Below, piece after piece: positions 23,987-62,535 of a stretch of 64,000 bases of DNA (its first letter is position 1; each line of letters opens with the position of its first letter). This DNA comes from Apostichopus japonicus (lineage: Eukaryota > Echinodermata > Holothuroidea > Aspidochirotida > Stichopodidae): NCBI RefSeq assembly GCF_037975245.1, contig NC_092564.1, positions 16,880,984-16,944,983 of the forward strand, given 5' to 3'. The position numbers and the translations under genes were made by a program. The notes below the pieces were generated by a model that saw only the letters and a program-made list of their open reading frames with translations, ran no database searches and was not told the origin of the DNA.

Positions 23987-24341
23987 TGTGTTCTTGTTGA
24001 GTAAATTATTGCCTGTAAATCTTTCAAAGATACTTGTTAGTAGTTTAACCCACGGTTATCTAGAGTTCTATCAAGAGCGATGCCTGACAGTATAGTAACA
24101 CATTCGTATATCTCGCCGATCTGAAAAGTGCGGCAGCCAATGATGATATGGTATTGTTATTGGATTGTGAATTTGCTCGTCTAGCAATGACTAAGCGTTT
24201 TGCATGTACATTACAAGAACGAATGTGAATATCAAATATCATATGTAGAAAAAATCAATAAAAAAGGGCGTCGACACTACAAGATTATTCAAGGAGAACG
24301 ATAAAACCAACGCGATGACTTTGCAGTTATATGCACTGAGG
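23987..24341. promoter_or_regulatory. Upstream region of GST-omega copy 1
   Basis: This is the 5' side of the minus-strand gene. No TATA box at a convincing distance was identified, and no other exon is visible. The transposon at 24342 begins about 355 bp upstream of the start codon. The promoter role is inferred from position only. Confidence 0.3.
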
Positions 24342-25505: not shown

Positions 25506-25541
25506 CACTGAGGTATAATCGTCTTTCTTGAGGGTATCTCA

Positions 25542-25912
25542 CAGTAGCGTAGGAAGGTACTTTTGAGTGGGGGGGGGGGGGCTGAAGACTGATGGCCGGC
25601 CTGGGGGAGGGGTCTAAGGGGAGGGAGCCCTCTCCCCTTTGGATTTTTTTTTGCATTTTCAGGTGGCCTCAGATGCAATTTGATGCAATATAGCACACTT
25701 CAACCCACCCGCCACTCCATTTTGTATATAATTTTGCATTTTCACCTGGCCTTATAGATGCAATTTGGTGCTCCAAATGAGATTTTTTTCTCATTTGGAA
25801 ATGAAAAAGGGGTTTTCTGACTTGCGAAGCGGAATGATACTTCCGCCCCTCCGTATTTTTCACTGGGGGGGGGGGGCTGGCGCCCCCCAGCCCCCCGGTT
25901 CCTACGCCCTTG
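25542..25912. mobile_element. Short hAT-like MITE
   Basis: The ends read CAGTAGCGTAGGAA and TTCCTACGCCCTTG, with a perfect 8-bp duplication GTATCTCA (25534-25541 and 25913-25920). It is 371 bp long, has no coding capacity, and contains two poly-G runs. Confidence 0.9.
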
Positions 25913-27477: not shown

Positions 27478-27570
27478 GGTGCTGTGGCCGAGTGGATAAA
27501 GGCGGTGGCATTTGAAGCAATGAGGCTTAGCAACGAGGAGGTTCGGCGTTCGATTTCCGGCCGGGTCATA
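27478..27570 (+). other. Type II tRNA-like sequence (Leu/Ser-like), probably a pseudogene or SINE head
   Basis: It has an A-box-like TGGCCGAGTGGATAAAGG and a B-box-like GTTCGATTTCC about 60 nt apart, with an expanded region between them as in tRNA-Leu or tRNA-Ser. I could not draw a clean acceptor or anticodon stem, so a functional tRNA is unlikely. Confidence 0.4.
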
Positions 27571-29283: not shown

Positions 29284-29690
29284 TGCACAAAATTGAATAA
29301 AATTATGTTACCGTGTGAAAAAAATGGAATAAACTTAATAGTGCGTAGTTTTGGCTTTCATAGTAATTTAGAGTTTTATTTCTCGACATCTCTTCTGTTT
29401 ATTGGTTCTGTGCACAAGAAAGTGAGCATCACACCTTTTCACTTGTGAAGAAATTTGGTAATTTTGCTGAATCGTATAAAATATATAAGCTACACAAAAT
29501 TGAATAAAAATATGTTACCGTGTGAAGAAATGGAATAAACTTAATAGTGCATCCTTTTGTTTTTATAGTAATTTTATAGTTTTATGTCTTGAGGTCTCTT
29601 CTGTTAATCAGTTCTGGATACAAGAAAGTGAACATCACACCGTTTCACTTGTGAAGAAATTTGGTCATTTTGCTAAATGGTATAAAATAT
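29284..29690. repeat. Two-copy tandem duplication, about 208-bp unit
   Basis: ACACAAAATTGAATAAAA, TGGAATAAACTTAATAGTGC and TTCACTTGTGAAGAAATTTGG occur in the same order twice, about 208 bp apart. No gene is evident here. Confidence 0.8.
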
Positions 29691-29979
29691 TCAATGGATC
29701 TAACAAATGCATTAACAACTTATTCTCATTGCGTAGATATAAATATATATATTAATTCATTTCCTTGTAATGATATGGCTAATCGCACTAATTTAGCAAA
29801 CCTGTTTGATCACATTAAATAACATACCCGCATTTTTTTAAGAAAGTTAAAACACTTATAAGACCTCATATAATACTGAAATAATTATTGTAACAAGATT
29901 TAACAACTTCATCAGTAGCCCCTTCCCCCCCTCCCCCCTCTCCTCACCCACCTATTTGTTGCCGTAATCGCCGATATTT

Positions 29980-32900
29980 TCAATTATGGGTCTCTATTTC
30001 ATCAAACAATGTGTTTTCGGTCCTGTAGTGCTTGCTGAACTCTTGATAGGCACTGTCTGGATGGAGGATGCTCTTCACGCTGGGATCATTCAGCATGCCA
30101 TTGTACCATGCGTGCAAGGTTTCCATGGATACGGGAACGCCTTCACCAACACCCAATGAACCAGAAGCTCTCAGTCTGGCAAAGACAGGCCACAACATGT
30201 AGTCCAGGAAACCTGGTTTGGACCCTACAGAGAGAGGATGAATGTGGAGTAATATTTAGTTGCAACCTGTGTTTAACTTGTGAGCTGCAGTGCTGCATGG
30301 AATTATATGTGATCGATTTTGCCACCATTTTGCTGTAATGGGGGTCTTCAGCATTTATGCAGAGGGTAGGGTGCTGCCATTTTGGTCCTTACAGTGCCAT
30401 AGATACGGCCAAGGGTGATTGTGATTGCCTTTGGGCAAATGTTACCGAACAGATACTGTGTAAGCTTTACAACCAATCTTTCTGTCCAACAATACGGTCG
30501 CATATTGTTCCTTGGCACTGTTTTCGGAAGAAGTTGTGGCCTTGGGATGCAAGTGTTAAAATACTAATAAATAGAATTGTTAATTCCAGTGATATCTAAT
30601 CTAGGTAAGGGCAGTGGGGATATACTCAGCAATTTCAGTGATATCTAGTCTAGGCAGAGGCAGTGGGAATAGACTCAGCAATTCCAGTGATATCTAGTCT
30701 AGGAATAGGCAGTGGGGATATACTCAGCAATTCCAGTGAAACAGGGCCAATTTTTACGGATTGTCCCTTGGACCATTAGGTCTTAGTGTTGGTTTTTCAA
30801 ACAGTTTATATTTGCTTGTCCAGGAAAATGTAGTGACAACAAACAATGACTGATATGTACACTGTAAAAGAGAAGTGTAGTTTTTGTAAATCAGACACCA
30901 GCTTTTGGTCCAGTAAAACGATCCCTTTTTGGCAGATCATAAGCCTACAAACTATTTTTGTTTTACTTAAGAATCTCCAAAATGACAGAGGTGAATACCA
31001 ATACAATACCTACTGTATTCGGGGGCACAGTATTCAGTAACAATCTGAATTTGAATTTGGAACCAGTCCCACACTGAAGAAACCACTAAAGCCGATTTTA
31101 GTTGTCCAACAGAAATTTGGTCTTCTAGGATTAACTGTTGAAACTTTGCTCTGTGTGATATCTAGTCTAGGTAAGGAAAGGAAGCTATCCTTAAAAATAG
31201 AAAACCACATCCATTGCTCTGTTGCTTACCATACCCCAAATCTTCTCCATATTTATTTTTAGTTAGTGCTTAAATTATAACTTTCCGTGGCAATACTTGG
31301 TTCATCAAAAATGATTTCTCACCGAAAAAGAAAGCCGTCCCTCTCTTCTTCAAGTCGTCGTTGAGATGCTGCAGGCTATCCCTGAGGTCTTTGACTTTCT
31401 CCTGATTTTGTCCACCTTTGGCACCATAGAACGAAGGAACTAACTAGAAAGTTAGAGAGAGAGAGAGAGAGAGAGGTGGAGAGGCCATATTGCATTGTGT
31501 TTCTACTTTTAAACCTCAAACACTACACAGAAGTAATGTCATTTGATTTCATGCAGGATGAAATTTTCTATTTCAACTGGGAATGATTTATATGGTACCA
31601 TGTCGGTTCTTTACCAAAATGACCAATAAAAAGATAAAGGTGAAGTTTTACAGTTGGCATATAAATCAAACCATAGTTTTCCCAGTATGTACTGTATTTT
31701 TAGGTATTTACAAACAAAACTACGATTAATGTTTTAAATTCTTTTCCCAAGCTGATAGAAAAACCGACTTAATTCAATGTTTCATATGTCAATGGCATAA
31801 CAATGTTTGGATAGCGTTTGCATTGTTGTACCTTGTACCCAATACTTAAACTCTTTGAAAAAGACTCATTTGTTTACTTAACTGAAATAATTTGATAAGG
31901 CCCAGAAAAAGGGTTCACAATCGCATGCATCACTGACCTAAATGGAGTCTACGAAAATTACTGTGTCTACTAAGCATGACAGCAACTATTTTTCTAGGTA
32001 CAACTGCCTTTTTCTGAAATGTTTGTACTTGCTGCACGATACCAATGAACAGGCTGCATCTCAATAGTTCTCTTCTCTCCAATTGTCAGGAAAACACTAG
32101 CATTACATAAAACAGTGTAGTGGACTACCAATATCATTAACATCACCATCAATCATTACCATGATTATTAGAAATCATTAGTATATTTACTGTTAAGTGG
32201 ACACATGCTACGTCTAGCCATAATTTGCTACTTTTGAAATGTTTTCAAATTTTGTCATGGCTTCGAAATGAGATTGGCTCAAGCTTTAATATTTTGATTT
32301 GTCTTCCTAGATCTATACACCAAACACTTCCCGAGCTCCATTCAGCAGACTTTTCAATGTCTGCTAGTCAATGATATCTGACGGAACAAATTAATGCAAA
32401 TATCTCACCTTGCCTCCACAGTGGTCAAGAATTATTGCATCTCTGGCTCTCTGGTATGGATCTTTAGGAATGAGTGGGTTCTTGTCGGGGTAAATGTCCT
32501 CCAGATACTGTGCGGTAATTATGGATTCATAGACGATTTTGCCGTCTTTCTCTAAGACTGGTACTAGTTGTTTGGGATTCTTTTCCACAAACCACTCTGG
32601 CTTCTTCCAGGTGTTTACGTTAACAACTTCGTGCCTGGAAGAGAGGAGAGAGAAGATCTGTGATCTACAGAACACAACAAATTCCTGACGCTATATATAT
32701 GCATGCCAATAGTTTGACAAATGGTTGCAGCAACCATCTAATCCTGCTGATAGTGTTACATTGTGAAGGTTGATCTTTGACTTTAGATTCACTTAAGTGT
32801 GACAGGCATAGAATGTCTCAAGTTTAACCACTGGCTTGCTAAATAACATGTGCTTGAAAAATTTACTGTTAAAAATCAACTTCCCATTGGCATTGTCTTA

Positions 32901-34492
32901 AATTACAGCACACATTATTAACTGAACAGGGTATGGGAGAGGCAGCCTAATTTACATTTGCTGATAAAACTCAGTAAAACATGGGTTATTTTAGCTACCA
33001 TAGTCTGCCTGATGCTGTTACTGTATGTGACTTATCATTTGTTTATGTTCTTAATATGTTGTCTCCTTTTGGAAAAATGTCAGCGCATTTTTTTCTACTG
33101 GTAAACAGTGAAATGCACTGACTAAAAGCTAGTTAATAGCCTGAATTTCAAGGCATGTATGACTAATTATATGAAAGTGACAGTACAAGAGACCTACGGA
33201 ACTTGAAAAAAAGCCTCTGAAACTTAAGAAAAGAATAAAGGAGCTGATAATGTAGCTCATGTTAGGACTTCAGTTACAACATTCAACAAAGAGTAAGATT
33301 CTACCATAAAGAACAGGGAAGGGAATATCAACATGCTTATGTTTTGCACAGAATGTTTTCAGTGCCACACAATTTTTAAATTATAAAATATTGAGAAGAA
33401 TAAGGTTCTGGGAACAACATCTTTGCAGATTGTGTTGCAAATTGGACATTTTTAGCAGATAAACTATTTCCTAGACTGTTGAACTAATTAGCATTAAATT
33501 GTACCTGCACAGTACAGACATTTTGAAACACTTTCAGTTTTAATAGATTTTAGTAGCCTAGTACTTACTCAATGCCTTTCGCATGCAGCATAAGCCTTGC
33601 TCTGTCAGCAAATGGGCAAAACTTCATGCTATAGACACGAAGAATGCCAGGCTGAAGGGGTGGAAGTGCATCACCTGAGAGAAAGGAGAGAAACTTGGTG
33701 GTTTTTGCTACTGGTAAGCTGTAAAACAAATGGCTTCTAGTATACTTCAAGGTTTTGAAGAACTTCCAAAATGTACTAACACCTATATATACTGTAGGAC
33801 TTGACATGTAACTATAATGGCCGTGGCTATTCTTACGACTAGTCGTAACAATTATTTATAAACTATTCTTACGACAAAGGCGAATTCAAGCGCAGTAAAG
33901 TAAATAAAGCAACTGCGCATGTAGTAGGGGTAACCCTAACCCTAAACATAACCCTAAACCTCAATCCTAACCCTAACTCTAACCCTAACCGGAAATTATT
34001 GTTACTCCTCATTGTAAAAATAGTACTCCTTTGGTCATAAAATAGCAACTGCGCATGCGTAGTCGGAAATAATCCTTACGACTAGTCGTAACAATAGCCA
34101 CTTTGAACTATAATTGTATTAAGATCAACAACATCAGCAAAAGAGTCCAATAAAAAGAAATTTACCTTTTACTTTAGGGGATATTTTTGGAAACTTAAAA
34201 AAGAAAATCAGAAGTTACAGAAAATATGATGAAATGTTTCTGATGTGCATCAAGTTTACATAATGTTTCGCTACATCAATCCAATAGGCTATCCTGTATG
34301 TATCGCAAACTATTTGTCATAGCCTGGCCTAGTATGGTAGTGTATAGCATTAGGCTTGTACTAGGCTAGCAGTAGAGCCATAACTAAATCCTTCTACGCT
34401 AGGCTTACTCGGTGAAGGCTGACTAAGCTACTGTATTATTATTAGGCCTAAATAATCTTACCAGTTGTTAAATGTTTTGGACCAGGCGCCAT
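29980..34492 (-). CDS. GSTO-like: Glutathione S-transferase omega, copy 2
   Basis: Minus-strand exons: 34462-34492, 33569-33674, 32409-32634, 31323-31443 and 29980-30224, giving 242 residues. Every exon has exactly the same length as its counterpart in copy 1, which shows a tandem duplication. The catalytic cysteine is Cys30 in [14 protein letters not shown]. The glutathione site reads [16 protein letters not shown]. The C-terminal domain holds [11 protein letters not shown] and HPDSAYQEF. The two copies have clearly diverged in the C-terminal helices, for example [11 protein letters not shown] versus [11 protein letters not shown], so substrate preference may differ. It lies head-to-tail with copy 1 on the same strand, about 6 kb apart. 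The same enzymatic roles are inferred from the family. Start choice: the identical MAP-type first exon. Confidence 0.93.
30587..30745. repeat. Three-unit minisatellite, about 50-bp period
   Basis: The unit CCAGTGATATCTAGTCTAGG followed by a GGCAGTGGGGATA-type half recurs at about 30587, 30636 and 30685 in intron 4 of GST copy 2. A stray copy of the GATATCTAGTCTAGG word occurs near 31158. Confidence 0.8.
33819..34105. mobile_element. MITE with internal telomere-like repeats, copy 1
   Basis: A 287-bp element in intron 1 of GST copy 2. The ends contain TGGCTATTCTTACGACTAG and CTAGTCGTAACAATAGCCA as imperfect inverted repeats. A perfect 9-bp target duplication AACTATAAT lies at 33810-33818 and 34106-34114. 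The centre (33931-33990) is an array of CCCTAA-type hexamers. There is no coding capacity. The 9-bp duplication would suit a Mutator-like origin, but that is uncertain. Confidence 0.9.
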
Positions 34493-38960: not shown

Positions 38961-41900
38961 ATGGCTGAAGAAAGTGTGAAGACTTTGAATGACTTTGAAA
39001 TGGTTGCTAAAAGGAAAATATGTCATGAAAAAAGGTGGTTATGGAACTATATTTCAGCTGGGGACGAGAAGACAAGAAGTGAGATGCGAGCAGCTTTTCA
39101 AAAGTGAGTCTTTACTATAGATATTGACTAGAAATATATTTATGAGGAATGCATTTTTACAGTACTCTAACCTCAAAATTTTACTTAAATATATAGCGTA
39201 TACTGCTAGCCTACGGTGCTCGTTTAAAGTACAATTTATAGAAATGGTAGTAATACTAGTATGCTTGTAAGTTAATTGTAACTGTTGATACATGTATAGC
39301 CATGATTGCACAATGTGAAGGCTAACTACCTACTGCATAATTTGCACTGTGAAGCTCTGTACTAATTATTTGCTTAATATATTTGATTTCAAAAACTTCT
39401 TGAGGTAAATTCATTCAATGACTCCAAAACTGATGACTAAAGAGATACAGATAAATTTATTAATTTGGACTACTGGAGGACCCGATTTCATTTTAGACTA
39501 AAGTTATCAATCTGCTCCATGAGCAAATATGAAATTCATAGTGAAAGTAGGTGGGTTTGGCTGAAATTAGGTCCAGTTGGTAGAAGAGGTACAAGTGGGC
39601 TGAGCTGGCCTGAGGGGTGATTCCGAGAGATTGTGGGACATTTGCAGGTCATCAGTATTGCTCCCACAGGAGTGTTAGCTCAGTGGTTAACACCAGTGCC
39701 TTTCAATCATAAGGTCCCCGGTTCGAGTCACTCCCAGATTAATGTATGTCGTCCAGTTACAGAGTTGTTGACAATTAACAATTCATAATCATGGACGTTA
39801 AATATGAATGTTAGAGACTGACTTCGGTCAGCTTGCGGCTTTGATAAGCCAATGATGGCTTCTTCGCGAGTTCCTGCTTGCAGGAGGATCTAATATATAT
39901 ACATACTGTACATACATACATACATGCTAGAAGTTCATATAATGGTCAACCTTGTTTAAATTTCAACAAGCATTTCATACAGTTCATTTATGGCATGGAA
40001 CTATAAAGGCAAGTTTTCATGTATCATTTCTAATGATACAGAAAGATTTTAAAAAGTTTTCAAGTTTTTCTGTATGAAAATGAAGTGCTAGAATCAAATT
40101 GAATGATTATTCATTTTATCGTACTCAATGGTGACCAAACACAAAAAGCTATGTTCGACCATTTTATATTCATGAAGATGTAGTTGATCTGTTGTATATA
40201 TACTTATAAAGCTTCAATCTGCGAGATTCAAGCAATTGCTTTAAAATACTATTTACAATTCTACCCATGGTACATTACTGTTGCACATACTTATCAGCTT
40301 TCTTATATACATACAAACATTAACATACAATAACTGAGGTGGTCATTTTCTGTACATTCGACTGTTAGGTATTGGCTTCAGCCAAATGTGCTGACAGCAC
40401 GAGTGGCAGTCCCAAGCACATGGACGACAGTCCTGGGACAACCGATCAGAATGCCCATTTGCATATCGCCCACAAGTGCCCCGACGTTTATAGATTCCCC
40501 AGACGGAGATGCTCTCGTGGCAAAAGGTGACGTGTGTTAATTTTATATCTCTATATGTGCCACTGCCTAAGTATTTTGAGGTACTTTTTCCCGTTCGATC
40601 GCAACTTCCGCGGCAACACGCCCACGGAGAAGAGATGGAGAGGATTCCAAAAGTTACTTTTTTTTATCACCGTGTGAACTGATGTGGAAGACAAGAGTTT
40701 GGGCTCATTTCAGTTTTTTTTGTGCATTCTGTAATGTAAAAATGGTGGCTTTCTGCATTAATTATATGTTCATTGCAAAGCTATAAACATACAGTAGTTG
40801 CACAGTTTTGAGTGATGTATCAGTGAGCTGTTTTATGGTTTAAAAAGGAAAATGGGTGATGCAACAAAGCTATAAACCACTCCTGCTGTTTTCATTTTCT
40901 GATTTTGGTCACTCGTTTAAGTAGGCCTATTTCAACAACAGAGGTTTAGTTCACTATTCAACCAGTTCAACAAAGATTGGCAAAGATTGGCAAAGAAAAA
41001 CAGGAGTGGTTACTCTGTAGCTTGCAATCCCACCTTTGCGGTCTTGAAGACAGTGACAAAACAATATTTTTACATTATAGTTGATGACTACTGGCTAGCA
41101 TTCTGCTTGGTGACCAATTTATCTGGTATATATATATACTGCTGCATCATTGAGAATTTCTTTAATCTTAATCTTCTATCTTCTTAATCTTCTATTAGAA
41201 TCTTCTTAATCTTCTATAAGAAACTTAATCTTCTATTACTGAATACTGGTAATCTTACAAAAAGTTATTGCATTGTGGACACCTAGAAATGGTTTTTGAC
41301 TTACTGGCTGACAGATTAAATTAGATATAAAAGGAGAAATTTATTTACATTCTGATTGTATCCCAGTAATGTCGAATGAGTAATGAGTAATTCTGTGTTT
41401 TCATATTAATATTTACCCATTATCCTACAGTACTTACTCTATCAAAACACCCTGAGTAACTAATGGTGTCTTTTCCCCATTTCCATTACATATATAGTTG
41501 TGGCAGAACGTGGTACTCTCATGGTGTATTCGTCAGTAAGCAAAATGAACATTGAAAAGTTTGGAAGTAAGCTACCCCCAAATGGAATCTACTGGGCCCA
41601 GACGTACCTGTTCCGAGATAAGAGGAACACACTGCACCTAGTAAGACATGCAGAGAAGTATGGCTTCAAAGCATTAGTTGTGACAGTTGACTCACCGATT
41701 GACTTTGGTTCCAACTTTGTATCGGTTGACGATGTCCCGGATTACCTTCCAGAACATGTGACTGAAGACAGGTAAGTAATAAAGATATTATATCACATAA
41801 TACAACTTCGCCTCTAGTCAATTGCTCAGAGATAAGACACAAAATTTTTCCACCTACAAGAGAAGTACACCCTCACCACCAAAGTGGTGGCTACCGAGTG

Positions 41901-48611: not shown

Positions 48612-49380
48612 TCAACCATTTACGTTTCCGATCTGCTTAATCAGTGTTGTTTCGTACTGATGAGGGTCATTAATTTGACTTTTGTTCAGGCTTTGAATGT
48701 CTTGTTTGGTTCGATCGTCGTTTACACTTTCTAGTACGTCATATGTAGATGAGCTTACTACCATGTCATCTTTAGTACTACGAGCAGTGACCTGACGGTC
48801 TAAATGATCGTATGACTGGTCAGTCGTCGGTGTAGGATTTGTCGCCACTGAATATTCATGATCGCTGATCTCTATTGCCTGTGAGGGAAAGATTCGTTCA
48901 ACATGGTCGTATCCGTTATTGTGTTTAGGCCTGGTTGCCTGATAGTCTAAATCTGTCTGCTTGTTAACGTTATTTATCAACGATGGATCGCCTTGTCTCA
49001 CGAGTTTATCATACTCTTCATCTCTACTCATCTCGTTATGGTGAGAATTATTCACTGCAACCATTGGCAACCTGTCTGTGTCTGATTCTAACAGTTGGTA
49101 AAACGAATCGGGATGCCTAGATGAAACCCTCTGGTCCTCTGGAAAATTCAAGGTAGCATAGTCACGTGTCTGCAGCGACATTCTTCCATCAGTATCGGAT
49201 ACACCAGTTTTGGGGGATTTACCGAGATAAATCTTCGTGTGTAAATTTTTTCCATCTGTGTCAAAGACAGAACAAGGTTAGCGAAGAAACTTACCCCCTC
49301 AAATACATTTAAAAAATAAATGTAGACAATCGCACATCCACACATACTCGCGCGCACACACGCACACAAATATACACACT

Positions 49381-49433
<53 letters not shown>

Positions 49434-49440
49434 GTTTATA

Positions 49441-49519
<79 letters not shown>

Positions 49520-51800
49520 TTATATATATATATATATCTATAACAGTAGGGAATTTACTCACTGTCTTTTCTTGAGATAGACCTTCTATTTCTCCAACTG
49601 CAAAGGAATAAAAATAAGTAAATTAAGATAACGGAGGAGACGTTTTCGTCTACACATTTTCTTGATAGGAAGTTTCATGTCATCAAAAAGGTGAGAATAT
49701 TGTGTAAGGGTGATATCATTCCCAACGCATTCGCTCCACATTCCTTTCTACCCTCCCTCCCCTCTAATCCTTTCAGTCAGCGATTGCTAAGTACCAAACA
49801 AATAAGTTATATATTTCCATTGCACACAACAGTGAAAGTTAATTAATTGGAAAATAAAAAAATTATAGATGTTCATGACTGTTATGTCTGATTGAACTAA
49901 GGTCTATATCTCATTTCATACAAAACCACCGTCTTAATGAACATGTGATATTTCAAGGTATAGATGTAGGCATAGTAGTAGTAGTAGTAGTTGTAGTAGT
50001 GAAAAATAAAACAAACACAAAAGTTGAACATAACGAAAACAACACTCAGAAGTTTCTACAGCATTTCGTGAGTATATGAATTTGGAAGAGAAACTTTGCA
50101 TCCAATGATTGTCAATATATACCGAAAAAAATCACACAAACGAACAACAACAACTATAACAAGAAATAACAATAGAGTCAACTTGAAATGAAGATGCATA
50201 CAGGCCTAGCTAAATTTCCATCGTAATTTAAAATCAAGGACGGGATTACTAGAGGAAGTTGTGCTTTAACCGGATTGCAATTTTGAGCACCAAGCAATCG
50301 GATAACCTCAAGTGAACATAAGAACCACGTGACATACCATACGGCAAGTAATTTATAACACTCATATTGTACAGGAGATTTTAATAAAAGGATCGGGGCG
50401 ATCACTGATATACGTTTTTGTCTACTATTACTAGGATAAAACGAAAGTTTTCTTAAAAAGGAGTGCAATTCTGTTTCTATTCAAGCTATTCCAAGACAAT
50501 GCTAGTTCAATAAGACCAAATAACTGTGTGTGTGGGGGGGGGGGGGGAGGGGGAGAGCGTCCCGGGTGGCATGAAAGTGTAGGCTACAGCTGAGAACATG
50601 ATCGACCAATATTTCACCTGTCAGCATATTTTGGTAAACTAATAATTGTGCCTACCGCTTCAAAAGAAGAAACACAGCGACGATGACGAACACGGCGAAT
50701 AGGGAAATCCCAACACCCAATCCGAGTTTCAGCGATTTATTATTCGGCGTTTCAACCTCCTCATACAGTTCAGTCAATGGTCCTGTTGTGACGTCACTAC
50801 TTATACGATTCTGTGATACTGGTCCTATCGTTGAGAACATGTGAAACAGTATAAAATATAAGTCTCCGGGTCCCTTTTTGTCGAATCTTCATAAAGTCCT
50901 GGTACATACTTAACAGGCATTGATCATTCTTCTGTTTTCTCCTTTCTGTATCTCAAAAACAAAACTGTTTATAATCGTTTTTTTTTATGTACCAGTTTGA
51001 TTGTTTGAATGTCACTGTATTTACATAATTCCATATCCCACATGTAAAGGATGTTATGGGACCCTTGGGTTTTTGAAGCCGATTCCCATATCGGGCGACG
51101 GGAGAGGGGGGGGGGGGGGGTGGGGGTCGAAGGATCTTCCCAACGAGACTGACTGGAGAGTAGAGTCTCGTTTACAGTTTAAGCTCATGTTGGCATTCTT
51201 ACTACGTTCGAGACCATTTCAGATGGAAAACCCGTGGATTTTTGGATGAAAAACCCATCTTTAGCCGATCTCCTCCCTGCAGAAGCTATAGGCTTTATAA
51301 CTTCTACTCGCCCATAGCAATGTAACCACCCCAATCACGTAGCCTCTTCCTCCCCCATCCTTCCCCTCCCCGCATTAATCTGATGTTCCCCTATGTTTAA
51401 AAGAGGTTAAAACCTGCCATATACGCAAATGGGATGATAACCGACGTGCCATTATGGCATATAAGTCACTTAAAACTTGCCCCCCCCCCCAAAAAAAAAG
51501 AAGGAGGTCAACGGCTATATCTATAGATATGTGATGCAGATGGCATGCATGCAATGTGTCGTATATAAAAAGAATAACAGGCCTATGCCAAATACTTGAA
51601 TACATAAATACTGCATGGGTACAAAAAGTATCGTCGGAGATTATGTGAGATACTATAGCATGACATTGCCAGGACATTTTGAACAAACAACAGATATGCT
51701 TCAACGATACATTTATCTTTGTAGCCTATTATATACTTACTCGTAGTACTTGGCATTTTAGTCGTTGACGCAGAAGCTGACCTGGGAGGTTGACTTGGTG
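48612..51800 (-). CDS. Tyrosine-motif single-pass membrane protein A (5' end unresolved)
   Basis: Minus-strand exons: 51741-51800 (Ser/Thr/Pro-rich stalk), 50656-50824 (stalk plus transmembrane), 49563-49597 (35-nt juxtamembrane) and 48612-49255 (tail, TGA at 48612). Phases agree throughout, giving about 301 visible residues. The membrane segment reads [20 protein letters not shown] and is followed by a basic stop-transfer run KRWRNRR. The roughly 215-residue tail contains YATL, YQLL, YDKL, YDHV, YDHL and YDVL, plus YQAT, YSVA and YETT. Phosphorylated YxxL/V motifs generally recruit SH2 proteins, so a receptor role is inferred. No signal peptide or ectodomain exon was found; the first visible exon needs one base from an upstream exon. 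I do not recognise a named family. It shares exon layout and motif style with gene B at 57638. Confidence 0.75.
49384..49541. repeat. (TA)n microsatellite
   Basis: Nearly pure TA dinucleotides with a few interruptions, in the last intron of gene A, close to the 35-nt exon. Confidence 0.95.
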
Positions 51801-52839
51801 CTGACATTAATTAAATGAATTTAATTTAATGACATAAATTAAATGAATTAGAGAACAAAATCAATACATGAAAGACTAAAACTATCAAACTGTTTTCGAT
51901 TTTTCTCTCTACACATCTTACTAAGTTATTTGTTGCAATCTATTGTTAAAATTTTAAAACCGAATATAGGCCTAGTTCCAATAATAATATTTAAAAAAAA
52001 CATAAATAAAAGACAGGCAAGTAGCTGAAGTAAAATCAACAAAGTAACAAATAGAATAAAAAGTGGTAAATTTATTCCTCCTGCGCATTTAATTTCTACA
52101 AATGATACCAATTTACTTAAAATAAATTATGAACAAAGATAAATAAAAGTAGTATATATAAAACTAAACGTCACCTCATTTATATACCCCTGTTGCTTTA
52201 ATAATTATGCAAATGGACTCACCCGTCTTTAATGTTTACAAATTGTCCTATACTTAAGCCCAGATAGGCCTATACTATACATATATATATGTATAAAATA
52301 TGCTTTTATTTACTGGTAAACTGAATTATTTCACGAAGAGGAATAAAAAATGCAGGAACAATATTGATAGGCTTCCGTCCTTCCACTTACAGTGTCGTGG
52401 TATTATATATACAAACTTATAACGCACAGGCCTATATAAATATATACAGTCCTATATAACTGTACTACATTATGCATGACTACCATGCATATCTATATAT
52501 AACCTGTTTACAACTTACAGCGATATATTTAGTACATGGCTAAAGAAATACAGAAAGTTTGTTTAGGACGGTGTTCTACGCGTGTTGTTGTACACCATCA
52601 AGGCTGGATGGTGGTGTGTGTGTATATATATACGTGGGCGGCGTTAGACGTGTAATATAATATATATTGTCCTTACTTTTCCATTTTGACTAATGAAGCA
52701 TTACGACCGATTGTCGTACAACGCAAGCAACGTTTATTCGTCGTTCGTGGCAGACCACTTATAACAAACTAGTCGGTTTATTTGAACTCGGTTCCCATCG
52801 TGCCAATTATACGAAGTTTAACCGTGTTTTGCGATCTGC

Positions 52840-52986
52840 AAAACACTGAAACGGGAGAAGGGTAAGTAAGTCTGGGGGAAGTACGGTACGTAAAAATCTA
52901 AAGTTTGGGGATGGACGAATAGCTGGTATGAGGCGGGTGTATCTTAAAGGATTCTCCTACAGACTGATCGTCTTGGAATAAAGCAA

Positions 52987-53064
<78 letters not shown>

Positions 53065-53185
53065 TTTATTCCAAGACGATCAGTCTGTAGGAGAATCCTT
53101 TAAGATACCCCCGCCTCATACCAGCTATTCGTCCATCCCCAAACTTTAGATTTCTACGTACTTCCCCCAGACTTCCTTACCCAGT
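52840..53185. repeat. Large palindrome with (TA)n centre
   Basis: The left arm, about 52840-52987, is repeated in inverted orientation at about 53064-53185. Long stretches are exact, for example GGTATGAGGCGGG opposite CCGCCTCATACC and CTTGGAATAAAG opposite CTTTATTCCAAG. The spacer 52988-53063 is pure TA repeat. It could be a foldback element, two facing element ends, or an assembly artefact. Confidence 0.88.
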
Positions 53186-53405
53186 TTCCACCTTTGCAGA
53201 TAATTTCCGTTGCTAAAAACCTCGGTGCCAAATATCCGTCATGTTACCCAATACAGGCACTGTGGTAAAAATTCCCTCTCTGGTGATCATTTTAGCAATG
53301 GCATTTACATATTCTACTGTGTTCTTTGTAAAGTGGGCAATTATGTAGGTGAAACAGGTTCTCGGTTCCGCTTGCGTCTTAATAATCAGAAAAAAATCAA
53401 AACAA
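53186..53405 (+). pseudogene. Decayed GIY-YIG endonuclease fragment of a retroelement
   Basis: The plus-strand translation contains NGIYIFYCVLC followed by YVGETGSRFRLRLNNQKK, which is the GIY...YVG core and Arg-rich helix of GIY-YIG nucleases. This domain is found with Penelope-like retroelements. Upstream residues (IRHVTQYRHCGKN) also fit a zinc-knuckle region, but the frame is disrupted, and no reverse transcriptase is visible nearby. It adjoins the palindrome, which may represent its terminal repeat. Confidence 0.6.
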
Positions 53406-53654
53406 CTACCAGTTCTACAAACATCTGTAATCCGTTCTTCATATTCTTTGCTTCCTGTATAGTCATGTATATGTATGCAACTTACACTTATCTAGCGTCA
53501 TACTTTCATTGTGTTACATTTTGTACTTTTCATTTGACTGCCAAGATATTGCTGACGAAGGTTCCATGGGAGCGAAAATTCCAATATATTTTCTAAAACA
53601 GTACTCCTTATTGGTCAATTATATGAGATATATCTTATTTCTCTGTTTTTGTCT

Positions 53655-53699
53655 AATAATAATATATATATCTATATATATATATATATACATATATAT

Positions 53700-53730
<31 letters not shown>

Positions 53731-53770
53731 GATATAGATATATATATATATATATATATGTACATACATA
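53655..53770. repeat. TA-rich microsatellite
   Basis: Interrupted (TA)n with a few CTATA and GATATA units, ending in TACATACATACA. Confidence 0.9.
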
Positions 53771-54215
53771 CATCATTGCAAAAATAAATAAAATAAAATA
53801 AAATACAATCTGGTTATATTTAGTTTATGGGAAGCATTAAACCGTTATAAAATATGTATTGTTTGGAAGGAATTTATCCTAATCTTGTAGAGTAGGTTAT
53901 TTTCCATGCACTCGATATCTGAGTAATAAGGTTTTTCCATTGGACTGGTAATCTAAGCTGCCTGAAGAAAAAAATAATAATATTATGATTTCGACAACTG
54001 AAGGTTTCAAAAGTGAACGAAGTTAGTTGCTAAAGCTCACGCGGCAATTATATATAATATAATGTTTGGTGTTCATCATTTCTGGTTTTATTCAATCCGC
54101 GCGATTTTACTGAACGAATAGATTTATAATTTGGCAAGTTTGCCAACATTGACTAGTAATTATCCGAAACGACTGGCAACATTAAACTAATATATGCGAT
54201 ACGTTTTGTTTACAG

Positions 54216-54417
54216 GACGATTACACAATTTTTACTCATTTAGTTGATGACCGAGTACGGTACTGCGGGAAAATTACTACCGGCTCAGAAATCCAACCCA
54301 GGGCGGAGATGGGACCTCGTACAAGCGATATATTTGACGCCTCGGTCGAAACTAACACCTTTGGTGACCAAGAGGAGATCGGTACCTCGGACCCAGCGGT
54401 GCACCGGTACAGAGCCG
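54216..54417 (+). CDS. Putative orphan exon, product unknown
   Basis: A 202-nt open stretch lies between a good acceptor (tttacag) and a good donor (gtaagt). It is markedly more GC-rich than its surroundings. It starts in phase 0 as DDYTIFTHLVDDRVRYCGK and ends RYRA plus one base. No family is recognised and no partner exons were found. The complementary strand is also open, so strand choice depends on the splice signals. Confidence 0.35.
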
Positions 54418-54721
54418 GTAAGTTTGAAATGCACGGTGAATTCCTGACTAGATAACATTGGAAAGAATCTATGGCATCTACAAACAAATTTATTTATTTT
54501 TTCAAGACATGGTACAAATGGAGATGTTTTGTACGCTTTGTATGCCGGTATTCTTTCTATTTTGCCGATATCTTGTTATTCACCGATATATCGCTAGTAT
54601 ATATTCGCCATCGTGTCAATACTTGTCCGGGCCGGGTGCCCTCCTCCGAGAATGCCTGTATTCACCGCTGAGTTATATGTATAAACTTCCGGTCTGACAT
54701 TGGTGCAGCAAAGTATATTAA

Positions 54722-55110
54722 TAGGAGGGCGTTGTGGTCAAGTGGTTAAGGCAGTGGACTTGTGATCTAAGGATTACAGGTTCGAGCCCTGGCCAGATCA
54801 TTGCGTTGTGTCCTTGGGCAAGGCGCTTTATCTCCATTGCCTCTCTTCACCCAGGTGTATAAATGGGGACCTGCGAGGTAACTTGTAAATATAGTTGCGT
54901 GCGCCGGTTTGTGGCTGCACCCTATGGGAAGTCCCCCGGGGGACACGTGGATGTGGTGCACTGTGGTGCCCCAGGAGAGATTGATTGAATTGTGCACACT
55001 TTGGTGTGTCGGTGTGACAAGTTACCAATGACCAGGGGTTAAGTTGTAAAGTCGTGTGAGGAGGCATTAGCCTCATACAAGACTGTAAACCTTCAACTTT
55101 AACTTTTTTA
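54722..55110 (+). mobile_element. Full-length tRNA-derived SINE
   Basis: The head contains A-box TGGTCAAGTGGTTAAGGC and B-box GGTTCGAGCCC at tRNA spacing. A body of about 300 bp includes CTTGGGCAAGGCGCTTTATC, a motif common to tRNA-SINEs of aquatic animals. It ends in a run of TTTAACTTT. A truncated copy of this family is at 15905. Confidence 0.82.
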
Positions 55111-55162
55111 ACTTTAATATTGTTTCTCCTCGGGCTGTGTTGATGCAGTGGAAAATATTATA

Positions 55163-55447
55163 GGCCGTGGCTATTCTTACGACTAGTCGTAACAATTATT
55201 TATAAACTATTCTTACAACAAAGGCAAATTCAAGCGCAGTAAAGTCAAGAAAGCAACTGCGCATGTAGTAGGGGTAACCCTAACCCTACACATAACCCTA
55301 AACCTCAATCCTAACCCTTACTCTAACCCTAACCTGAAATTATTGTTACTCCTCGTTGTAAAAATAGTACTTCTGGTCGTGAAATAGCAACTGCGCATGC
55401 GTAGTCGGAAATTATTCTTACAACTAGTCGTAAGAATAGCCACTTTG
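55163..55447. mobile_element. MITE with internal telomere-like repeats, copy 2
   Basis: Same family as the element at 33819 (285 bp versus 287 bp). A perfect 9-bp target duplication AATATTATA flanks it (55154-55162 and 55448-55456). The telomere-like core lies at about 55275-55334, and differs from copy 1 at only a few positions. Confidence 0.9.
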
Positions 55448-56700
55448 AATATTATAACCTTGCAATTGTAGCATGGCGCCATAAATCTAGTATGTACCGT
55501 TGATCATACCGTTATGACGTCATATGCGGCCTCACTTCGTGGCGGAAGTATTTTGAAAAGGTCACGTTATAGAAATTAGCCCGTGACTGCTTTACAGTGT
55601 GTCATAGTGTGGTAGAAAGGCAATTCTTTGTCGGAATGAAGGCCAAATGAATGAAACAGCAAACTTGTTTTATAAGGGCTATATCATATATAAGAATCTT
55701 CTAATTTTTTGTGGTACAAATTGAACAAAGACTTGACTGACTGAATCCGTAAAGACGTTTGAAAACAAAAATGTACCCAAAAGTATGAACACCGTACCAC
55801 AGGGATATCATCCAAATTGTCAAACCCCTTGTTCCTGTATAGGCTCTTCTATGTTTTTAAATGAAAGTACCGTAAAATAATACAATTGAAAGCATTCGTA
55901 TATTCTCGATTGTACCACACATCTACGGAAAGCACGTATACTGCAACAACAACAAAAAAGGCTCACAAATTTGTTATTAGTAGGCTATGTATCACAATTG
56001 GTATTTTACCTAAGGCACACTTTAAATACCTGTATTTGAGGGTTTAAGGCAGGGTTTCCATAGCTTTATGCTCCCCTCTTGAACCCCCTGTGGATGTCAG
56101 AGTTGTCCACGTACCCCCAACTTTTCGAGACACGATCTGAGTTATTATTATACTGTTATAATCATAACAGTGCTTAGTCAAAGATCAAATTCATAGTGTA
56201 ATATTGTAATGAAAAAACAAGAGATAAACAAATGTTTATTTGGAAACTTGAAGATCAGATCAGCTCTTTATCTTCACGACGTAATGTCATGCGTACACCA
56301 ACTTCACCAAAGTCATGCGGCCTGTGTCTGTTTCATAATTCAGATATTAATCACATGCACGGTACGGTACTATACTATTGCAACATATGCGTATGGAACG
56401 CGAAAAGAGTTTGTCAATATAGGTAAGACTTTTGTACATGACTAAATTATATGCTATATCAGATTTTATTTCAACAAAAGTACTCTAGTTTTGACTTTCA
56501 GAAACGTCCCACGAACCCACTGGGATGGACTCAGGCACCCCCTGGGGATTCATGCACCCCAGTTATAGGAAACCCCTGGATTAAGGTATAGGGGAAGGAA
56601 CATTTGTCATTTGGGGGAGGTGGGGGTACTGAGGAAGGGAGGGGTTAAACTAGTTTGCTTTGTTAAGGCACAGTCGGAGGGTTAGGTTACAGAAATGGGT
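55448..56700. other. No gene seen
   Basis: AT-rich unique-looking sequence with short overlapping frames on both strands. It shows no splice-bounded exon, no RNA gene and no element ends that I could pair. Confidence 0.5.
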
Positions 56701-56724
56701 ATATTTCTTCTGAGGGCAATGACA

Positions 56725-57190
56725 GCAGTACCAACGAACAATATGAGTAGCAGCAACAACAACACTGCCAAGAACAACATCGACAAAAGCAACATAAAAA
56801 ACTACACCACTAACAACGTCAGCAACACAACCAACGGCAGGCAGACACTGAACAGCAACAGCAGAAACAACAGCAGTTGAAGCAACAGCACTGAGATCAA
56901 CGTCATCAACAACAATATAAAATAACAACATGAACAACACACTAGCAACAGCAACAACATTGAGAGGAACATCAACAACAACAACAACATCAGAACCGAC
57001 ACACTATAACAACATGATCTCCACCACCAAAAACAGCGAAGCACTAAACAGCAACATAAAAAACATCCACGGTAACGGCAGCAACTCTGAACAACATCAA
57101 CAACACCAGAACTAACACACTAACATCATCAACAGCCACACCGACAACAGCGAAATAGTGATCGACAACAACAACAACATGGTAAAGAAC
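56725..57190. repeat. Degenerate (AAC)n trinucleotide array
   Basis: About 460 bp dominated by AAC/ACA triplets with interruptions. It opens reading frames rich in Asn/Thr on one strand and Val/Leu on the other, none of which looks like a gene. Confidence 0.9.
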
Positions 57191-57637
57191 ACCACCAGTA
57201 TACAACATCGCCAATCTAGGGCATCCCTGTTTCTACAGGTAGAATAAGTTATCCAACGCTTCATATAATTGCAACCGTTTATTAAAGGATGTTGTTCACT
57301 GAAATCATATTTCTTATAAGAACATTAGCTTCATCCCGTCATGATGATGAGTTATATGATAGCCATCATATGACACTGTACATTAAACTTAATTTTAACA
57401 TGAATGTTTAAATCGGAATCGTGTGTTCTAAGTTCAAGATAGTTTAAAATGTCTCTAATTACTTAAACGAATGTGCATTTACATTTATTGTCCTATTAGT
57501 TGAAACCGATACAATATTCTTCTTGAGTGCTTGGATTAGTTGAGGGTATTCAATACATTAAAGTTATTCGTTCATGTGTGATTATTAGCTTCACCTTTGT
57601 CTCCGATCTCGGATTTGTATAGCGAAGAATCTGAGTA

Positions 57638-60600
57638 TCAAGGATAACTGATGTGTGAATATTCATTAGCATCGATGACGTCACCTTGGGAAACTCCTCT
57701 TGATAACGTTCCTCTGTTGAGTGAATCATAGGAAATGCCACTACCCGAGTTCGTCGCATTCAGTTTGTCGTACCATGCGGGAACTGTATGGTTGTACTCT
57801 GCTTTGCGTAGTAGAGCATCTTCATATTCTTCTTGCGGACGGTTTTGGTTAGGAGAGTTAGTCGAGTTAGCCTCACCTCTGTCATTGACTTTGCCTTCAG
57901 TGCGTTTAAGCTTATCGTAGGATGGCGAAACTAATGATGTCGAATTACTGAGTGTTGAATATTCATTAGGATTGATGACGTCATGTTGAGAAACTCCTCC
58001 TTTCAAACCAATGTTGCCATCTCTGTTTAGTATATCATAAGAGGTGCTTTCTGAGGTCAGATTCAATCTGTCATACCCTGCAGCTCTGTTAATATCCTCG
58101 TTGTCAATCATCCTGGAATGGGCATCTCTATCCACCTGATCGTAATCGACATCTTTGTGTGACGTCACTATCCCATTCAAGGCCATATCCGGTTCCAGAG
58201 TCTGGTAAAAGGGTGTCGTTTCTGCGGTCTTCTTTGTACTACCATGGAGCTCCATGGTACTACTCTCCTTGGCTTCGGGGATATTTTCGTTAACCTCTTC
58301 GTACTGATCTGTTGGACTAGCTCCTTCCATCCCTGATGTAAAAATGAGTAGATTTGATAACAGACACAATATTTGTATTACATTTGTCTTTCAACAAGTT
58401 TGGCAAACTCTTTCGCATCGGTTTTAGTATGATGTCGTATCATACAACGGCATGGCACATATACTTTCTTGGTTTACGTTAAAACATGTGTCAATTCTAT
58501 CTTAAGCCTTTAGCGTATACGCATGGCCATGACCGACACCTCATTCAGTCGTTTGAAACGGTTCAGTGTCAGTCATTCTTTTTCATTCAGCCGGGGAGAT
58601 TAAGACTAATGCTTAAGTGCATACCCCCCCCCCCCACCCCCACTTTTTCTACCTCACATGCACATGCACACACAGCCAGGAACACACACACATAAATGAG
58701 AAAACCAATTGGCACAATCGTGCCTTGAGAGAGTAAATTATAGACGTAATCTATAGTCCAAATATGACTCAGAATGCAACATTTGACTTAGTAATGCTTT
58801 ATGTTTTTTTTTTTCTGGGTAAGACCCCCAAACCCCTAAAATCCGCTTCAACGACCCAGTGCCACGTTGCTTCCGGCCCTGTCCTTGGGGAAGGGACTTA
58901 ACTTGACCCCCACCTCTAAATTCATGTGCACGCTACTATTTTAAACCTCATACACGAAACGTAAAACTTGGATTAAAAGACCGAAAGAAGTGTCTACGTA
59001 CGGTTTTTATAATTATATCAGCAACTTGTATAGGAACCGCTTCGCTGCTGATATTTTTATTTCCTCTTCAAATACACGCTTGCTACTGGCAAAATATATA
59101 CAGTGCCGTGCACAGGGTTTCAAAGGTAGGGTTAGGGGCATCAACTTGCATAGAAGGGTAATCTGGGCCTGGAGGAGTCATCCAAAGTCTACCCCGACTG
59201 AATGTAAACAATCCCGCAACTGAATGTTTTACCCCCGACTGACCATTAATGTGGAGCCCACACCCTTTGTGCCTTCGTCACTATACACACATGCACAAAA
59301 CATATCATAACATTTGTGATTGAAAACCTATAAAATGTTTACAAGATTTACCTTTCATATTTACACCGTCACTGTCCGTTGTGTATACCGGATTCCTTCG
59401 CTGTTGAAGTCTGTTGAAACAAACAAGCGAACGTTTTTGTTCAACAACACAGAGAAACACTATATAGTACTGTCGTCACCGGATACTAACTATAACAATA
59501 TGTTCAGTGTAAAGTATTCAGTATTTTAAAGATTACCGGAAAGATGGCAGTCAATATGACGTAGAGTCCGACGGATACACGGTATAGGCTTACATGATAA
59601 AGGTATTGCAATGTATTTACCAATGTACTGCATGGCAACGATAGGCATACTATATCCATGTACCCTGCATGTAACCGATGGAATATAGTATTGTGTGAGT
59701 TGAAAGATTTTTTTGAATGAATCTACAAAATGTCGACAAGATGCAAGTTTGATATCTTATATCGCTATACAGTAATTATTACATAAGAAACACCTTTCAT
59801 TCCAAGCATTTAAGGTAAAAGCCATCCGAGTTGGTTTAATTTTTATTGACAGCGTGGTTAATTTAGTTTATGAAAAGATGTGTTTTGTGTGAAATTTTAA
59901 AGAGTGATTCCTTCATGTTCCGGTCATGTGTTATATCGTATTAATTGTAAACTTATTGGCAATCATGTTTAGCAGGTAAAAGTAAAATTTAGGATTCAGA
60001 ACCAGGGGTGGCGGAAAAAATCCAGCCTGGGCCGGGGGGGGGGGGGCTCGATGGACAGTGGGACATGTGACTTATTTTTGAGTGGGCAATCACAAACTTA
60101 CCTCAAAACATTCCGAATAAATGGATCCGTTGTGCAACCCGTAACACAAATTCTAATAATTGAAGGTTTATAGTACAGGATAATTAGAATATTTCCTTAA
60201 AGTTCTTACGGTGCATTTCGCTAGGTAACTTGATTAAATTCGGCGGGAAATGGACTTCGTTGGTTAGGAAACTCAATGATCAAATTCGTTCAAGTGGTTA
60301 GGAAACTCAATGATCAAATTCGTTCAAGATAACGTCAGCCTTCAAATAGATTAATAGGGTGAACTGTTTTTTTTTCGGTCTTGTCTAACACTATAGACTA
60401 AATGTATCTAACAATGAAGGTGTCAGAAAGGTGGATATTAAATTAGTTATCAAAATCTAGATCGACCATACGAGTAATTGAACTTTCAAAATTGGTTTCG
60501 TTAATATCCCCCCCCCCAAAAAAAGCGAAAATAGAAGAAAGCAAAATGCGTGTATAATCAGGGGCGTATCCAGGGGGGGGGCGCAACAGGCGCGCGCCCC

Positions 60601-62535
60601 CCTATTGGCCGTCACCCCAAAAAAAAAAGTTTAGCAAAAAAAAAAAAAAAATTGATGACGACCTTTATGTGAGATGTCGGTGATCGCTCAACCCCCCCTT
60701 CCCCCTCCCGTATGCTTTATTTTTTGTTTGCCAAAAAAAGGTTCTGGCGAAGTTCGGCGGCATAATAGTTTTAGAAACATAGATGGTAATTGTGTTTGTA
60801 TTATCACTATAAACACTAAGTGACATGCCAGCCATACTAAATTGTGCATTTTGTGTCCATATTTACTGGAAATGTTGCTTATTATTAAGGTCGAAAAATG
60901 GATCACATATGGCACCATTTTGCATTTCAGCCCTTCTTCGAAAGCAAAAATTGTCCACCCCTCCCCTTAGACCCATCCCCCAGGACGGCGATCATTCATA
61001 TCTGACCCCCCCCCCCTAGTGGAAAATCCTGGATACGCCCCTGATAATTATTTCAAAGAAAAAGACGCGTTTCATAATACCGTAATAAGTGAAATATCAC
61101 GTAGTGAACTTGAATAGGGAGGGATACATGAGTAGCGTTATGCAATTGTAGCTGTAGGCCTTTATATCCAAATCGGAATAATCCAGAACGTTTTACTAAC
61201 ATTTGATGCTTAATAATGTCATCTTCCGAGTGAAATACTTACCGTACGATCGATTTCTTCCGGATAGACCATATTACCAGTAGCGCAATGACCACCAAGA
61301 GAACGGCTGGTAGAGTCACCAATATAACTACATTTGGACCCGTCTGGGTATCCCTTGGTGGTACTGACTGCAGGGCGAACGTGGACGTTGGTATCTCTCC
61401 CGTCGAGAGCAAAGGCGTGGTTCTACTGGTGACCGAAGTAGAGGTACTCGAATGCACTGTTGTTATCATCGATGTAAAAGTTTCATCTCGTGTAGTTGTG
61501 GGGGCAGTCGTTGATACCCTATTCATCGTCGTCTCATCATCATTCCGACTGTCATCGACATCGTCACCACGTCTACGTTCACTGTAATTGAGAAAAGAGG
61601 ACAAACACCATGAACAGCTTATGCTTATAAATTTCTATTTAGTCCGTTACGGGTCCCCCGTAAGGTGTTTAGTGCCAAGACCGGAAATTGACAAATGATT
61701 TTTGTTGTGATGTAATGAAAATGATAAAAAAGGCGTATTTATATTTCTATGAAAGCGTTCCAGATGTGCTTGTCTCATAGACCTGTAGATTTTCTTATTA
61801 TTTAGGCCTTCGTGATCAATATTATAATATACAACAAGGATGTGTTTGGATTTTTTTTTGGCATCTATATCAAAAAATGCCTGACAGGTTGGAGAGAGGA
61901 GCTGCGTTTTCCCACCTCTTACATTAACTTAAAAAAGAAGCGACGTTAGATTGATTGTCTATTTGTACGAATATAGAATTTCTTTACTAGTATGTAAATA
62001 CCACACTAGTAAGAGACGTTAAACTCGCAAAGAAGCAACGAGATGACATCACAATCCAAATATTGTGATCCAGTAAATGAAGTTTTATCATGCAACAAAG
62101 TCGAAATAAGTTAACAAGCACCCGTGTAACGTTAGACACAAAGTATTAATTAAGCCGTGGGATGGGGGTTTGGGGGGGGGAGGGGTTCATCTAACCGTAT
62201 GTACTATGTTCTTTTATTTTAATGCTGTAGTAGTATGTACGACGTAAGAAGTATTTCTTAATATGTTGGAATTATTACTACGTTTTCCGCGCGAGGAGCA
62301 AATGTAACAAATTGGAAATTTTAAACTTATGGATATAGGCCTACTTATAGAAAGTTGTACGTTTACGCAATCCATCTTTCGAACGCTCTGTTGCAATACT
62401 CAATAGGATAGAAAGGCATACCAAGTAGCTACAATTTTTACCAATCTTTAATTTATTAACATATTTTACTCACTCTGATCTATTAATACCGCCACCAATA
62501 GACTCTTCCCTTCCCTTCTTTCTGCCTTTCTTCAT
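57638..62535 (-). CDS. Tyrosine-motif single-pass membrane protein B with ITAM-like tail
   Basis: Minus-strand exons: 62474-62535 (tentative first coding exon), 61243-61581 (Thr/Ser-rich stalk and transmembrane helix), 59352-59410 (juxtamembrane) and 57638-58332 (tail, TGA at 57638). The joins are in phase and give 384 residues. The membrane helix spans about residues 104-127 (NVVILVTLPAVLLVVIALLV) and is followed by IRKKSIVR. An NPVY motif ends at Tyr143. The tail has 13 tyrosines from Tyr164 onwards, ten of them in YxxL/V/I context. Pairs Tyr240/252, Tyr278/292 and Tyr341/355 have 8, 10 and 10 residues between half-motifs, close to ITAM spacing. A unit SYDxLNR...GVSQxDVI..NEYS occurs twice. 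No signal peptide is present in this model, so the first exon may be wrong and an upstream ectodomain may be missing. Function is inferred as SH2/PTB-coupled signalling. Confidence 0.75.
60262..60331. repeat. 34-bp direct duplication
   Basis: GGTTAGGAAACTCAATGATC followed by AAATTCGTTCAAG occurs twice back to back, in the intron of gene B between the membrane and juxtamembrane exons. Confidence 0.85.
60559..61043. mobile_element. hAT-like MITE in intron of gene B
   Basis: The ends are CAGGGGCGTATCCAGG and CTGGATACGCCCCTG, inverted repeats of the GGGGCGTA type seen in other elements here. It is 485 bp with poly-A and poly-C runs. Flanks share only ATAAT, so the target duplication is not clean. 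Confidence 0.75.

Follow-up and report, generated by a model that had tools for sequence, protein, structure and literature searches.

Membrane proteins which signal through tyrosines in their tails include the immunoreceptor tyrosine-based activation motif (ITAM) chains CD3-zeta, FcR-gamma and DAP12, the adaptors LAT, LAX, SIT and PAG, and the proteins Draper, CED-1 and MEGF10. The LAT-type adaptors use YxN sites, which serve Grb2, and carry a membrane-proximal CxxC palmitoylation site. In invertebrates, a review of Botryllus (PMC12065747) describes the fester co-receptors (FcoRs) as type I receptors, encoded by clustered genes, whose tails carry YxxI/L/V and in some cases an immunoreceptor tyrosine-based inhibitory motif (ITIM) or a hemITAM, and reports nearly every other component of the ITAM/ITIM pathways in Botryllus but no LAT or slp-76 homologue in ascidians. 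In amphioxus, partners of slp76 but nothing resembling LAT were reported by another study (PMC5431462), whose authors propose that the role could be filled by an unknown molecule at the membrane. Here we describe two genes, A and B, on the minus strand of a 64-kb window (the whole stretch of DNA that was analysed) of contig NC_092564.1 of the echinoderm Apostichopus japonicus, which together with genes C and D outside the window form, as judged from their sequences, a small family of predicted single-pass membrane proteins with four intact-looking genes. We argue, with a probability of roughly 0.6, that A-D are single-pass scaffolds whose phosphotyrosines would dock SH2 proteins, in the manner of either ITAM chains or LAT-type adaptors.

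The tails of A, B, C and D carry 6, 10, 17 and 8 YxxL/I/V motifs, respectively. Composition shuffles reached the observed Y-x-x-[LIV] count in 42 of 20000 trials for tail A and in 0 of 20000 for tail B, and for the narrower string YD.[LIV], of which the tails of A, B, C and D hold 4, 6, 11 and 3 copies, the count was reached in 0 of 5000 shuffles in each case. Asp occupies position +1 in 20 of the 36 distinct motif strings of the tails, and in all four genes the sequence around the motifs is more acidic than the tail as a whole. ZAP-70 is described in a published study (PMC5889215) as preferring acidic surroundings at its substrates, with which the acidic surroundings in A-D agree, and we counted this agreement in favour of the scaffold reading. 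Pairs of the form YxxL/I-x(6-12)-YxxL/I were found in three of the four genes (three in B, five in C, two in D, none in A), and gaps of 8 and 10 residues between motifs recur in B, C and D. The ITIM pattern [SIVLT]xYxx[ILV] occurs 2, 3, 3 and 1 times in A-D, numbers which were reached by 525, 173, 215 and 1723 of 5000 shuffles, respectively. Cysteine, and with it CxxC, was found in none of the tails; a CC pair lies in the ectodomain of C and a single Cys in the transmembrane segment of D, and A and B have none.

The relationship between the tails goes, by sequence comparison, beyond their motifs, and we regard the four as homologous. Tails A and B matched each other in a masked BLASTP comparison with an expect value (E) of 7e-5. 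When tail pairs were compared with 300 shuffles which kept every YxxL/I/V in place (C being represented by its first unit in the C-D comparison), all six pairs scored above every shuffle (0/300 each), with scores against shuffle maxima of 90 and 85 for A-C, 111 and 83 for A-D, and 411 and 168 for C-D. The preliminary description had built its case on tails dense in tyrosine motifs, and this emphasis is borne out by the alignments, in which tyrosines are conserved to a greater extent than residues in general: 9/9 against 90/168 for D-C, 7/8 against 61/138 for D-B, 7/7 against 61/123 for B-C, 6/7 against 38/107 for D-A, and 5/8 against 41/129 for B-A. In the alignment of all four tails, with C again represented by its first unit only, 6 of the 23 invariant columns are Tyr. 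The ratio of nonsynonymous to synonymous substitution rates (dN/dS) was 0.45 for D-C, 0.36 for D-B and 0.32 for B-C, and judged by these ratios the tails are under purifying selection. Outside the tails, the juxtamembrane segments are basic and contain RR[NS] in all four genes, and VTxP is common to the transmembrane segments of B, C and D.

Genes C and D were retrieved with tail B from the 671.6-Mb assembly of 35 contigs, in which our counts of family members are lower bounds. A ferritin exon of this assembly aligned over 91 residues to PDB entry 7VHR, which is named in a paper on Apostichopus japonicus ferritin (PMC8886333); 89 of these residues were identical in one uninterrupted run, in keeping with A. 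japonicus or a species very near to it. Gene C (contig C4:16953302-16948241, minus strand) lies outside the window about 4.7 kb upstream of B, so that A, B and C stand in tandem, while gene D lies on another contig (C9:14718696-14715914, minus strand). Searches with tails D and C were concordant with that made with tail B, and tail A retrieved itself and D. Both C and D look intact and repeat the anatomy of the window genes, with a transmembrane exon, a 59-nt juxtamembrane exon and one tail exon joined in phases 2 and 1. Gene C begins with a 74-nt ATG exon which has an in-frame stop upstream and the same donor phase as the first exon of gene B; in gene D the junction entering the transmembrane exon is in phase 1, as in gene A. 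Five degraded copies of the tail were found as well: one on the plus strand between B and C (C4:16945268), two on contig C21 and two on contig C23. The suggestion of a locally expanded family in an invertebrate therefore stands, and the proposed scan for further copies beside the window yielded gene C.

Some other loci were looked at in the same searches. The degraded copy between B and C is an inverted tail exon at C4:16945200-16945950 (locus L012, 1201-1951) on the plus strand, and the sequence adjoining it resembles the 3' flank of gene D. No further family member was found at loci L013, L014 and L016-L018. A match on contig C11 (E 0.48 genome-wide, E 0.004 in a small set) was taken as chance, and a transmembrane-like match at 23884-23816 (E 2.4) was dropped, as its frame closes soon after and no splice context was seen.

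Genes A and B extend over 51807-48612 and 62535-57638 of the window, respectively, and their exons are listed in the table. Every exon of the preliminary description, including the transmembrane exon, the 35- or 59-nt micro-exon and the single tail exon, was recovered at its position, as were the counts of tyrosine motifs in both tails and the Ser/Thr-rich stalk before the membrane (32% Ser+Thr in both A and B). The intron phases had also been described as matching, which holds for two of the three junctions only: the transmembrane/juxtamembrane junction is in phase 2 and the juxtamembrane/tail junction in phase 1 in both genes, but at the junction upstream of the transmembrane exon gene A has phase 1 and gene B phase 2. 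When each intron between transmembrane and tail exons was scanned for micro-exons (phase-compatible, 20-119 nt, combined splice score of at least 6), one candidate was obtained in A and one in B, in each case the exon named in the table, against a background in the window of 0.06-0.08 such candidates per kb at the score of the gene B exon (8.6). The first coding exon, which was set in the present analysis, is the weakest part of the gene A model, because it has no likeness to the first exons of B or C, and the acceptor of its transmembrane exon is another weak point (-0.4 by a simple splice score). Further exons scoring above 6 on the minus strand at 48.6-64 kb comprised only parts of the gene B exons and a short frame at 50430-50338, in a scan which is insensitive, since the gene A transmembrane exon itself scores about 3 and would escape it. 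Genes C and D, lying outside the window and repeating the same architecture, provide independent support for both models.

Features of genes A and B in the window
Feature	Position	Strand	Description
Gene A first coding exon	51741..51807	-	22 residues; ATG with in-frame stop 2 codons upstream; donor GTAAGT, phase 1
Gene A ectodomain end and transmembrane exon	50656..50824	-	Phase 2 donor; KD19 2.93; C-side flank +8/-1
Gene A juxtamembrane exon, 35 nt	49563..49597	-	Phase 2 to 1; sole compatible micro-exon above threshold in the intron
Gene A terminal tail exon	48612..49255	-	6 YxxL/I/V; homologous to tails B, C and D
Gene B first coding exon (MKKGRKKGREESIGGGINRS)	62474..62535	-	In-frame stops upstream; donor GTGAGT, phase 2
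Gene B Ser/Thr-rich ectodomain and transmembrane exon	61243..61581	-	KD19 3.31; C-side flank +6/-0
Gene B juxtamembrane exon, 59 nt	59352..59410	-	Phase 2 to 1; 59-nt counterparts with the same phases in C and D
Gene B terminal tail exon	57638..58332	-	10 YxxL/I/V; 3 ITAM-spaced pairs
Tail B duplicated stretch, first copy	57944..57999	-	86% identity with 57699-57644 across 57 aligned positions (E 5e-13)
Tail B duplicated stretch, second copy	57644..57699	-	Directly before the stop codon

Besides the duplicated stretch listed for tail B, a weaker match in the same register joins 58081-58021 with 57778-57712 (69%, E 0.13). In tail C the repetition is plain: a module of 93 residues occurs three times in tandem, its last copy shortened to 77 residues by the stop codon, and the copies differ from one another at 11/279, 17/231 and 6/231 nt. 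Beyond the stop of gene C (L012, 4241-4186) a further 56 nt match the module at 91% (E 2.5e-19), so that the last module was evidently cut short. Beyond the TGA of gene B (window 57637-57580, minus strand) protein alignments extend by 8 to 14 codons, which is weak evidence, and the DNA there gave no significant match to D or C and just 12-13-nt matches within B. Gene D, with its eight motifs, looks closest to a single unit.

No family scored above its curated cut-off when the models and tails of A-D were compared with Pfam (one run with gene A minus its first three residues, one with 356 of the 525 residues of gene C). A search of the PDB with gene B gave just three matches to integrin transmembrane segments, at E 1.1 and above, and one with the four-tail profile gave no match up to E 10. 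The earlier failure to match the pair to a named family is thereby repeated with databases at hand. Sub-threshold Pfam matches (Psg1, MLANA, SIT, Herpes_U44, TBPIP and others) were taken as matches of transmembrane segments or of composition; that of gene D to SIT had E 0.29 and 12.1 bits against a cut-off of 27.6. Among the matches listed, the open-access PMC literature held no description of the family. Tyrosine-motif tails are already known in invertebrates; a domain-poor, module-amplified family with a micro-exon architecture, as deduced here from sequence, is not described among those literature matches.

The preliminary description had called A and B receptors, and on this point we cannot follow it. 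Each of the four models has one strong hydrophobic stretch, flanked on the C side by a charge of +6 to +8 and on the N side by one of +1 to +2 (up to -3), and since the C side is the positive one in all four, the tail is predicted to be cytosolic by the positive-inside rule. The parts before the membrane measure 57, 105, 128 and 208 residues across A-D, with 32-37% Ser+Thr; in C they include Thr-rich repeats, in D repeats of Ser-Gly. If A-D were ordinary type I receptors, these parts would be only the stalks, the signal peptide and the ligand-binding domains would be encoded by exons which lie further upstream or were missed, and the tails would be ITIM- or ITAM-like, as in the fester co-receptors of Botryllus, given in the published account (PMC12065747) as type I receptors with YxxI/L/V tails. 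Mucin-like stalks are usually found on proteins of the secretory path, and signal-peptide exons are often followed by an exon entered in phase 1, as is the transmembrane exon of A and D; both would suit a type I receptor. On the other hand, a single-exon scan, which was uncalibrated on known signal peptides and had a background of 6 and 5 matches per 102.6 kb for two phases, detected no first exon of signal-peptide type with a suitable phase upstream of A (6.8 kb), B (5.7 kb) or D (11.1 kb) and one poor candidate for C in 21.9 kb. The next family gene lies directly upstream of A and of B, short ATG exons with in-frame stops upstream are present in A, B and C, and no ligand-binding domain was detected in the models by Pfam. 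In the lack of a convincing signal-peptide exon upstream, the term receptor is unproven, and we consider type I receptors an unlikely reading, though one to be taken seriously; from the predicted anatomy a transmembrane scaffold or adaptor would fit at least as well. The reverse orientation, a type II protein with its Tyr-rich repeats outside the cell, would explain why a signal peptide was not found and would agree with the basic amino terminus of B and of the first modelled exon of D, but the charges flanking the membrane place the C side inside in all four and N-glycosylation sequons occur in all four tails about as often as expected by chance, so we hold it to be very improbable.

The motifs themselves admit another use. 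YxxL/V doubles as an endocytic signal, and all 6 motifs of A and all 10 of B fit the clathrin adaptor signal YxxPhi, so that A-D could be trafficking cargo, recycling mucins for which tyrosine phosphorylation is not the function; the mucin-like ectodomains would suit this. A single signal is enough for sorting, however, and 6 to 17 copies, the preference for Asp at +1 and the amplification of modules would fit multivalent docking better, which makes cargo an improbable explanation. The ambiguity of the motif nevertheless weighs against the phosphotyrosine scaffold that we prefer, and so do several other points. Given the number of motifs, ITAM spacing is not above that of random placement (525, 770 and 959 of 5000 for B, C and D), and YxN sites number 0 in each of the four tails. 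The A-B tail score of 90, against a shuffle maximum of 89, is narrow on its own, and dS was not estimable for the two A-containing pairs tried. The first modelled exon of gene D is open at its 5' end, its start not being settled, and the first exons of A, B and C are not alike, so that a signal-peptide exon may have been missed.

If A-D are indeed scaffolds for SH2 proteins, the amino terminus would lie outside and the tail inside, as the positive-inside rule predicts, and the tail would be unstructured. Src- and Syk-family kinases would phosphorylate its tyrosines, and the number of motifs would determine how many SH2 proteins dock, giving a multivalent signalling scaffold which might serve a separate ligand-binding subunit, in the way of an ITAM-like chain, or be a LAT-like adaptor; valence would be tuned from one paralogue to another by the duplication of modules. 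SH2 domains are encoded in the genome, with 82 SH2 exon matches, a number inflated by a dispersed repeat, and one SH2 exon best matches ZAP-70/SYK. Locus L038 looked Shark-like by eye, but Pfam gave only SH2-type models and no ankyrin repeat there, and it may represent either Syk or Shark. Elsewhere, Syk/Zap70 homologues are described in invertebrates in one paper (PMC5978004), and Syk and HTK16 transcripts are listed for starfish eggs in another (PMC11593052).

The dispersed repeat is up to about 2.7 kb long. Its SH2 exon, which has an open frame in most copies, finds its best match in Fer kinase (E 1.5e-13). It was found at loci L049-L051, L053, L054 and L056-L066 on contigs C4, C14, C19 and C20, with longer shared stretches 88-97% identical; 16 of the 30 SH2 loci retrieved, counting L057, share long stretches with L057, and L055 shares just 293 nt. 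From its sequence it looks like a mobile element or a segmental duplication with a captured SH2 exon.

The rest of the window holds some other coding features. On the minus strand at 14858-33855 several frames were read by eye as tandem glutathione transferase exons, of which Pfam GST_N confirms that at 32394-32690 alone. On the plus strand, a flavin mononucleotide (FMN)-dependent dehydrogenase exon at 41467-41772 (Pfam FMN_dh, E 4e-12) probably belongs to a hydroxyacid oxidase gene. Between A and B, also on the plus strand, an open frame at 54216-54417 has good splice signals and no Pfam match, and a frame at 53204-53596 contains the string YVGETG, which would fit the GIY-YIG nucleases of Penelope-like elements.

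Compared with the known systems, A-D resemble the ITAM chains in being predicted single-pass proteins in which no ligand-binding domain was found and in the YxxL/I pairs of B, C and D, which are spaced by 6-12 residues and number more than one per chain. They differ from them in their long tails with many single motifs, in the preference for Asp at +1, in a transmembrane segment without an acidic residue, in a Ser/Thr-rich part of 57-208 residues and in having no sequence relative found in the PDB; since pair spacing is at chance given the number of motifs, membership in the ITAM chains was dropped. They would resemble LAT, LAX, SIT and PAG in the single predicted transmembrane helix, in a long, tyrosine-rich tail with acidic sequence around the tyrosines and in the signal peptide, of which the uncalibrated scan gave no convincing exon; gene D adds its sub-threshold match to SIT. 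Unlike these adaptors, they have YxxL in place of YxN, no CxxC and a longer ectodomain. The fester co-receptors of Botryllus and Alr of Hydractinia are likewise invertebrate proteins with ITIM/ITAM-type tyrosine motifs, but the former have a signal sequence and Ig and sushi domains, none of which was detected in A-D. With Draper, CED-1 and MEGF10 they share tyrosine-motif tails, and the juxtamembrane exon of gene B holds NPVY, but the A-D models gave no EGF or EMI match in Pfam. On the features compared, the ITAM chains and the LAT-type adaptors appear functionally closest, but membership in either fails on the features tested. A narrower proposal, which we put forward tentatively and rather doubt, is that A-D are echinoderm LAT-like multivalent transmembrane scaffolds, fed by Syk or Shark together with Src, whose valence was set by copying YxxL modules within one exon (6 to 17 sites); if true, such a family would fill the place of the LAT reported missing in ascidians and amphioxus. 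The interest of the family lies in the reported absence of LAT-like scaffolds from the invertebrate chordates studied and in its graded site numbers: A-D offer a concrete echinoderm candidate for a membrane-bound molecule with up to 17 tyrosine motifs of a conserved type, and paralogues with 6, 8, 10 and 17 motifs would provide a natural series for asking how the number of sites tunes signalling or clustering.

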